Virus record (IMG/VR): IMGVR_UViG_3300034107_000171
Location: 1-20,466 of that record
Origin: a virus
DNA: 20,466 nucleotides
Reading direction: 5' to 3' (one strand)
This document shows positions 11,564 to 13,416 of this stretch, piece after piece. The notes under the pieces were generated by a model. The model saw only the letters and a program-made list of their open reading frames with translations. It was not told where the DNA came from and searched no databases. A program made the translations under genes and the position numbers. The number at the start of each line of letters is the position of its first letter. Position 1 is the first letter of the stretch.

Positions 11564-11595
11564 AAAAGAAAAAACCCCATACAACTGGAGTCTAC
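11564..11595 (-). terminator. Terminator at the 3' end of the structured RNA
   Basis: The 3' arm of helix P2, ending GGGG on the minus strand, is followed directly by TTTTTTCTTTT. A strong stem followed by a U-tract is a classical intrinsic terminator and would release the RNA near 11566. Confidence 0.65.
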
Positions 11596-11721
11596 ATTTG
11601 GACATTCTCTTATGTTTATCACCGACCAACTAAGCATAAGAAAACTAGGCGTAGACCCCATGTGTATAGGGCTTTGGTCGTGATTGTAACATAAAGAAAC
11701 CGTCCAAAGTTTCCTTCTGTT
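11566..11721 (-). ncRNA. Structured RNA with two crossing long-range pairings
   Basis: A transcript of about 156 nt is predicted between an extended -10 promoter (11728-11736) and a U-rich terminator. Helices on the minus strand: P1, 11716-11709 with 11700-11693 (8 bp); P2, 11671-11651 with 11595-11575 (9 bp, a 2x2 internal loop, 10 bp); P3, 11644-11635 with 11614-11605 (10 bp). The G-U pairs in all three would be A-C mismatches on the other strand, which fixes the transcribed strand. The P3 loop contains TTGGTCGGTGAT, complementary to ATCACGACCAA just before P2 (11 bp, one bulge). The P1 loop TTTGGAC is complementary to GTCCAAA between P3 and P2. Both cross P2, giving pseudoknots. About 110 of 156 nt would be paired. 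No coding frame fits. I do not recognise it as a known RNA class. Confidence 0.75.
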
Positions 11722-11727
11722 AGTAAA

Positions 11728-11736
11728 ACTATACCA
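11728..11736 (-). promoter_or_regulatory. Extended -10 promoter of the structured RNA
   Basis: On the minus strand TGG is followed by TATAGT, the same extended -10 type as at terS. The -35 position (TTCTTG) is poor. It lies just downstream of the terminator of the preceding unit, so the RNA appears to be an independent transcription unit starting near 11721. Confidence 0.55.
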
Positions 11737-12765: not shown

Positions 12766-12794
12766 TTGACTGTATTCATAACTGTGATTATAGT
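12766..12794 (+). promoter_or_regulatory. Near-consensus sigma-70 promoter of the HTH/sigma gene
   Basis: TTGACT (12766-12771), exactly 17 bp, then TATAGT (12789-12794). It lies 23 nt before the ATG at 12817. This is the best full promoter in the window and probably opens the whole rightward unit early in infection. Confidence 0.85.
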
Positions 12795-12816
12795 CTTAAA
12801 AAAAGAGGAGAAGTAT

Positions 12817-13416
12817 ATGAAAGAATATCGAGTAAAAGTAACGGTTAGGAATAACTTGTTACTGTCAGCGATTGAGGATGCTGGCTACAAATCTCAAGCA
12901 GAGTTTGCTAGATCTGCTGGTCTAACGGACACACAAGTTACAGCACTAGTTGGGCTGCGGGCCTGTCCAATAAACAACGATGGAGAATTTTCAAAGTTGG
13001 CACAAGCGGTTATGGAGGCCCTGGGCGCCTGCCCAACCGATCTGTGGACAAACGAACAATTAACTATGCGTTTAAAAGTCAGTAGCGCAGAAGCTAAAAT
13101 TGATCAATACCAGTTACATGCAGTACTTGGAAAGAACGCATCTGATTTAATTGGATTTGAGGTTAAACAAAACAATGAAGATCATTTACATGACTTAAAA
13201 AAATTAGTTGCAGAAAAGTTAGATACCCTTACTCCAAGGGAAAGAAAAGTATTGCAATTGCGCTTTGGAATCGACGCAGAGAACCATACATTATCTGAAG
13301 TTGGCAATATGATGGATATGACTAGTCAAGGTATACGTCAAATAGAAGCAAAAGCATTGCATAAACTGAGACACCCATCACGTTCCAGTGATCTCAAACA
13401 ATTTATAGAGGAATAA
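12817..13416 (+). CDS. HTH domain fused to sigma-70 region 4
   Basis: This 199-residue predicted regulator has an N-terminal Cro/C1-like HTH (about 12-75: SAIEDAGYKSQAEFARSAGL, TDTQVTALVGLR) that continues ACPTDLWT, as in XRE-type proteins. The C-terminal part (about 130-199) is sigma region 4: LTPRERKVLQLRFGI, then LSEVGNMMDMTSQGIRQIEA and KALHKLRHPSR. Regions 2 and 3, needed to open the -10, are missing. It may therefore redirect host RNA polymerase or act as a DNA-binding switch. AAGAGGAGAAG precedes the ATG at 12817; an upstream in-frame ATG lies within the promoter. It is the first gene of the plus-strand block. Confidence 0.82.
   Translation: MKEYRVKVTVRNNLLLSAIEDAGYKSQAEFARSAGLTDTQVTALVGLRACPINNDGEFSKLAQAVMEALGACPTDLWTNEQLTMRLKVSSAEAKIDQYQLHAVLGKNASDLIGFEVKQNNEDHLHDLKKLVAEKLDTLTPRERKVLQLRFGIDAENHTLSEVGNMMDMTSQGIRQIEAKALHKLRHPSRSSDLKQFIEE

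Follow-up and report, generated by a model that had tools for sequence, protein, structure and literature searches.

Several described systems come close to the RNA that we consider here, and each of them differs from it in some telling way. The C4 antisense RNA and the P4 CI RNA are phage RNAs with paired segments that lie upstream of phage operons and are linked to termination; in the present case, the complementary segments lie within one fold, and the setting is not confined to phages of the temperate type. The orphan RNA Betaproteobacteria-1 (RF02932), which we take to come from a 2017 study of 224 candidate structured RNAs, lies directly downstream of our RNA and on the same strand, both in the stretch of viral DNA that we analyzed (20,466 nucleotides; hereafter, “the window”) and in its close relatives L001-L003, although it is a distinct RNA, and our unit has other partners elsewhere. 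IsrK of the prophage Gifsy-1 combines a short terminated RNA with a read-through RNA from one promoter and acts through the translated read-through mRNA (PMC4825925). Layout and phage setting are alike (we claim no sequence kinship), but the read-through transcript of the window would begin with a structured RNA; an ORF of 61 aa follows at 11336-11151. The put RNA of HK022, about 70 nt with two stem-loops, is a structured part of early phage transcripts downstream of early promoters, where it suppresses termination (PMC9378689); our unit differs in itself ending in a terminator, and the likeness is restricted to the second RNA. We conjecture, by analogy, that this second RNA (RF02932 or one of the other types below) may be comparable in role to put, which would be its nearest model if it acts on polymerase. 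In mycobacteriophages, RNA-based prophage origins place a noncoding RNA beside partition genes (PMC7157519); the host phylum is another one, and our family of units has no recurrent link to partition genes.

What, then, does the window hold? The original prediction placed an extended -10, three helices (P1, P2, and P3), a U-tract, and two crossing pairings on the minus strand at 11736-11566, and all of them are indeed found at the positions given. The extended -10 TGGTATAGT (11736-11728, with the hexamer TATAGT at 11733-11728) goes with a weak -35, and transcription is expected to start near 11721. P1, a hairpin of the minimum free energy (MFE) fold at 11722-11687, has the inner 8 bp seen before (11716-11709/11700-11693) and also an outer 5 bp (11722-11718/11691-11687) that had gone uncounted. 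Its loop, TTTGGAC (11708-11702), is perfectly complementary over 7 bp to GTCCAAA (11603-11597), the J segment that leads from P3 to the 3′ arm of P2, and this is the first pseudoknot, PK1. In the second, PK2, the linker between P1 and P2 (11684-11674) is complementary to the loop of P3 (11629-11618), giving 11 bp with one bulge. P2 and P3 are backed by the MFE fold and by covariation: P2 joins a 5′ arm at 11671-11651 (11671-11663 and 11660-11651) to a 3′ arm at 11595-11575 (11595-11586 and 11583-11575) in 9+10 bp with a 2x2 mismatch, and P3 is a hairpin of 10-11 bp at 11645-11604 (11645-11635 with 11614-11604). The U-tract TTTTTTCTTTT (11574-11564, including a T6 run at 11574-11569) follows P2 and was called as an intrinsic terminator by a terminator scan. 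Judged by its sequence, the window thus encodes a structured phage RNA of about 155 nt, consisting of P1, P2, P3, and two pseudoknots.

On the minus strand, the stretch of 171 nt folds at -58.7 kcal/mol (z = -5.1; none of 200 shuffles was as stable), and the fold of the plus strand is weaker, at -44.5 kcal/mol. It had been argued that every G-U pair is valid on this strand only, which is true, but true by definition; the informative form is the ratio of G-U to A-C cells, which is 252:26 in P2 of the RF02932-linked units and 78:17 in the close family, and because G-U cells outnumber A-C cells, the transcribed strand is fixed. Protein coding can be set aside, as the ORFs that overlap the RNA (e.g., 11739-11524) are mechanical, and indels of 1-2 nt set the relatives apart. 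That the RNA matches no known family has also held up: a search of Rfam 15 gave no match above gathering score on the RNA itself, be it in the window, in close relatives, or at 16 loci of the wider family, the best score being a chance match far below the cut-off, and a known ribozyme or intron was set aside for the same lack of a match. The RF02932 model (cut-off 49.4 bits) finds nothing over 11722-11566, matching the neighbor at 11560-11440 alone.

Does evolution respect this fold? Three viral contigs that encode a related ParB-like protein have the RNA in the same place, and further viral contigs were collected with a pattern of the P1 loop and J alone (ACTTTGGACNGT...GTCCAAA). Across 12 relatives, 88% of the cells in the named structure, both pseudoknots included, are paired, and 16 pairs have changed on both sides; the covariation score of 0.179 compares with 0.109 in shuffles (reached in 0 of 500) and 0.04-0.10 for slid structures. 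In these same 12, P1 shows changes on both sides in 5 of its 13 pairs, and helices 4 and 5, which belong to P2, are 100% paired with compensatory changes. PK2 is hypervariable and yet is paired anew each time, with GACCAA/TTGGTC in the window vs. CCTGAA/TTCAGG in L002, and with GCCACGAA/TTCGTGGC as the counterpart in L234 and CGAGTCAA/TTGACTCG in L243. The fold is, in other words, beyond chance, as homologues carry the compensatory changes that one would ask of it. PK1 is invariant within the close family, and since this group was gathered by the PK1 pattern itself, the covariation test is silent on PK1 there; its backing comes instead from a wider superfamily.

To reach that superfamily, we inspected the sequence upstream of RF02932 at 152 loci in viral contigs, 84 of which have a long terminator hairpin immediately 5′ of RF02932. 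For 33 cluster representatives, pairing between the 5′ region and the inner region of this hairpin is better than with swapped partners (0 of 20000 permutations), and the order P1 hairpin, linker, P2, P3, J, P2′, U-tract recurs with quite different sequences. A structural descriptor, in whose matches a T-run after P2 is present by construction, gave 91 matches at a score of at least 40 that adjoin RF02932 and 10 that do not; five of these 10 look like chance, and five are window-type units (L244, L248, L250, L255, and L257), three of which (L244, L248, and L257) nevertheless have RF02932 by Rfam. We also assembled a set that is independent of RF02932 by using a pattern on the surroundings of P3 and J in the largest family (family A), a pattern that ignores RF02932, the P1 loop, and the sequence of J and that yielded 87 distinct units. 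J takes 16 different sequences among them, and in 14 of the 16, it still finds at least 6 bp in its own 5′ region; PK1 of at least 7 bp is formed by J with its own 5′ region in 76% of units and with a swapped one in 3.3%. The P3 loop takes 31 different sequences in family A, 24 of which keep at least 6 bp, and PK2 of at least 6 bp is formed with the unit’s own linker in 83% of cases and with a swapped linker in 9%. (PK2 is absent where the P3 loop is very short, as in L152.) Pseudoknots that are rebuilt with other sequences must be selected for pairing rather than for sequence, and with own pairing so far above swapped pairing across diverged phages, both of the crossing pairings first proposed for the window are real. 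The RNA is a member of a large family, not listed before, whose virus-encoded RNAs have one or two internal knots and of which at least 150 distinct copies are present in public viral contigs.

The unit does not stand alone. In the window, RF02932 (11560-11440, minus strand; Infernal 88.7 bits, E 1.4e-15), which the original prediction overlooked, begins 8 nt after the T6 run, leaving no room for a promoter between the two. Among 48 family representatives, TATAAT-like hexamers cluster just before P1 (38 in a 40-nt bin vs. 3 on the other strand), and sense-strand -10-like hexamers number zero from -120 to +80 of the RF02932 core, so that no separate promoter is visible for the second RNA. Nearly all RF02932-linked units end 85-108 nt from the RF02932 core, and a T-run directly follows the 3′ arm of P2 in the listed units of family A, whose pattern does not require one. 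The RNA had been described as bounded by its own promoter and terminator between two other units; promoter and terminator stand, but the 3′ neighbor is no unrelated unit, being a second structured RNA (in other phages, another conserved element) that follows within about 8-25 nt and for which no promoter is visible. As for a promoter after RF02932, the peak of -10-like hexamers there is about equal on both strands of AT-rich DNA, and we do not claim one, although a later promoter for the genes may lie there. Conservation of Betaproteobacteria-1 runs about 75 nt past the Rfam model in the window (11440-11365, minus strand; CUGUGGCUCCGAAAGG...CACC), and the model is therefore probably too short.

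Nor is RF02932 always found with the unit. A similarity search of annotated phages and plasmids turned up no copy of the unit and RF02932 only in Acidovorax phage AP1 (L315, 7918-8041), where it is unannotated in the record and directly follows a primase gene with no unit just upstream, an arrangement in which it can belong to a longer transcript. In 399 bacterial genomes from the order of a Betaproteobacteria bin, RF02932 scores above its cut-off in five; it is preceded by the unit in the bin itself but not in the two of the remaining four genomes whose upstream sequence was read (L325 and L326, with L331 from the same genome as L325). A window-type covariance model found nothing in the same 399 genomes. 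A 14-base pattern of P1 was dropped as too short, with mostly chance matches. Pattern matches in Dyella and Rhodanobacter are taken as chance as well, the Dyella one overlying an ORF like methionyl-tRNA synthetase.

If RF02932 may lack the unit, may the unit lack RF02932? It often does: among the 87 units, RF02932 comes next in 20, and nearly all of the others are followed by different conserved elements. We distinguish types X, Y, and Z, each a conserved noncoding element of roughly 200-270 nt that starts just after the U-tract. Type X (about 20-220 nt after the U-tract) is seen in L335, L336, L340, and others; type Y in L337, L338, L349, and L352; and type Z in L343, L345, L358, and L376. 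Rfam gave no match among the X, Y, and Z elements tested. In type Y, 16 predicted pairs have changed on both sides, and TTTCTGC, which comes directly after the U-tract, is part of the first helix, as would be expected if transcription passes the terminator; types X and Z are known from alignment or reading. In L255 (8740-8500, minus strand), a window-type unit is followed by a sequence other than RF02932, X, Y, or Z.

The unit nearly always comes immediately before another conserved RNA element, and its probable role is therefore that of a start-and-stop gate for this downstream RNA. The specific form that we propose, with somewhat less than even confidence, is an RNA gene with a leaky or conditional terminator that would yield two products, a short one of about 155 nt and a read-through one that includes the second element, with the unit and the second RNA together forming what we infer to be one bipartite transcription unit. 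IsrK offers a precedent for such a pair of products. Host RNA polymerase would start at the -10 just before P1. In the nascent RNA, P1 would form, P3 would capture the linker (PK2), and the loop of P1 would capture J (PK1); the pseudoknots would bring the distant arms of P2 together, and P2 would stop transcription in most rounds, releasing a compact, stable short RNA. By joining the arms of P2, the pseudoknots would, on this proposal, set how often the gate closes and stabilize the short product. In the other rounds, or whenever folding changes, polymerase would read into the second RNA (here, RF02932) and the downstream genes, and the second RNA, interchangeable among phages, would act on the long transcript or on polymerase. 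A gate that refolds is possible, as the arms of P2 are able to fold alone: the 5′ arm by itself has -4.1 kcal/mol vs. -1.4 kcal/mol when shuffled (p = 2.5e-8), and each arm folds alone in most families, although the two arms are not independent evidence. Against all of this, the window’s own 20-nt arms of P2 have no local hairpin (0.0 kcal/mol), the P2 terminator looks strong, and promoters further upstream could feed the downstream operon. Regulation of that operon by the RNA is possible. One can go further and imagine a modular device, in which a double-pseudoknot terminator gate stands before at least four unrelated, interchangeable RNAs (RF02932, X, Y, and Z), each modifying host RNA polymerase or the downstream transcript; this we hold to be possible but rather doubtful, and if it is true, phages exchange the second RNA in the way they exchange antitermination systems.

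The chief competitor is a free-standing small RNA that acts in trans. The unit’s own promoter and terminator, its compact double-pseudoknot fold with strong covariation, and a cassette that occurs in unrelated genomic settings speak for such an RNA, in which case the RNA of about 155 nt would be the sole relevant product, working through a bound protein or exposed loops, and the second RNA would be a neighbor only through a shared mobile cassette. We find this rather doubtful: immediately beside the unit there is nearly always another conserved element, and no promoter is to be seen separating the two. Complementarity to the phage’s own genome, moreover, shows no clear excess (the longest match does not exceed that found with swapped genomes; 0.055 vs. 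0.031 11-mers per kb), and loops that are engaged internally argue against simple antisense.

Where the cassette sits bears on the remaining readings. In the window, the operon downstream comprises the 61-aa ORF, a ParB-like protein, a helicase, a methylase, and a primase, and the original prediction offered a replication-linked RNA or a regulator of the ParB-like operon. Elsewhere the company changes. The largest group has a small Cro/YdaS-like regulator encoded immediately upstream (PHROG 35; Pfam PF15943, with PF14549 below cut-off), and YdaS is also a weak match, under the Pfam cut-off, for two further upstream clusters. T7-like phages have the cassette between their scaffold (PF05396) and major capsid (PF19821) genes. 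Neither of those roles is general, then, and such varied settings mean that the cassette is not bound to replication. A primer or origin RNA, like the RNA-based prophage origins of mycobacteriophages, would fit the ParB-like, helicase, and primase genes near it in the window and the AT-rich stretch after RF02932, and it has that precedent (PMC7157519); with many units after cro-like genes or before a capsid gene, and with RF02932 itself before or after replication genes depending on the phage, we consider it very unlikely.

A role in immunity or incompatibility, in the style of P4 CI or P1 C4, reads the same settings differently. PK1 and PK2 would be a code of self and nonself, and the short RNA of a resident phage would pair with the nascent RNA of a related incoming one and force it to terminate. 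In favor of this, PK2 is changeable and yet re-paired, as the P3 loops of family A show, a terminator stands directly ahead of the downstream transcript, and in many phages, the unit sits after a Cro/YdaS-like gene and before other genes on the same strand. Prophage immunity is not expected between the scaffold and capsid genes of T7-like phages, however, and Rfam finds no match of the RNA to C4 antisense RNA (RF01695); we regard this reading as unlikely.

Small HNH-type genes lie within about 170 nt downstream of RF02932 in L194, L221, and L231 (and also in L172, L176, and L211), an HNH endonuclease gene following RF02932 in a few phages; the calls come from Pfam HNH in one cluster, the second being HNH-like by eye only. 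Their presence after RF02932 in phages of different gene content suggests a mobile cassette. An anti-defense decoy RNA would fit such a compact, apparently mobile phage cassette with rapidly changing pseudoknot sequences, but it leaves the constant coupling to a second conserved element unexplained, and we think it very unlikely.

In the literature that we covered, mostly freely readable papers and with the 2017 study of 224 candidate structured RNAs outside its scope, there is no description of the unit. Both the class of fold and its combination with interchangeable second RNAs appear to be new, and the logic that we propose may be one already known. Fast sequence change under a persistent fold has kept the family from being described, and both pseudoknots, repeatedly rebuilt, provide unusually clean evolutionary evidence for crossing helices. 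Betaproteobacteria-1 gains a frequent partner, at least three further conserved elements join it at the same site, and what these phage RNAs do can be probed, for the entire set, by a single reporter assay.

A few smaller observations deserve mention. On contig G006 (that of L161 and L168), two diverged pairs of unit and RF02932 lie at 417-538 and 35631-35752, possibly as two prophages or a joined assembly. Upstream of the RNA in the window, a 35-aa ORF on the minus strand (11892-11785; MFDFDKQVKEVTTQVKKYNDMWINWTITVLEQLKK) has its own TATAAT and terminator and a diverged counterpart in L003; it has no Pfam match. Further along, at 12766-13416 and on the strand opposite to the RNA (plus), the window encodes a phage protein with a sigma-70 region 4 domain.
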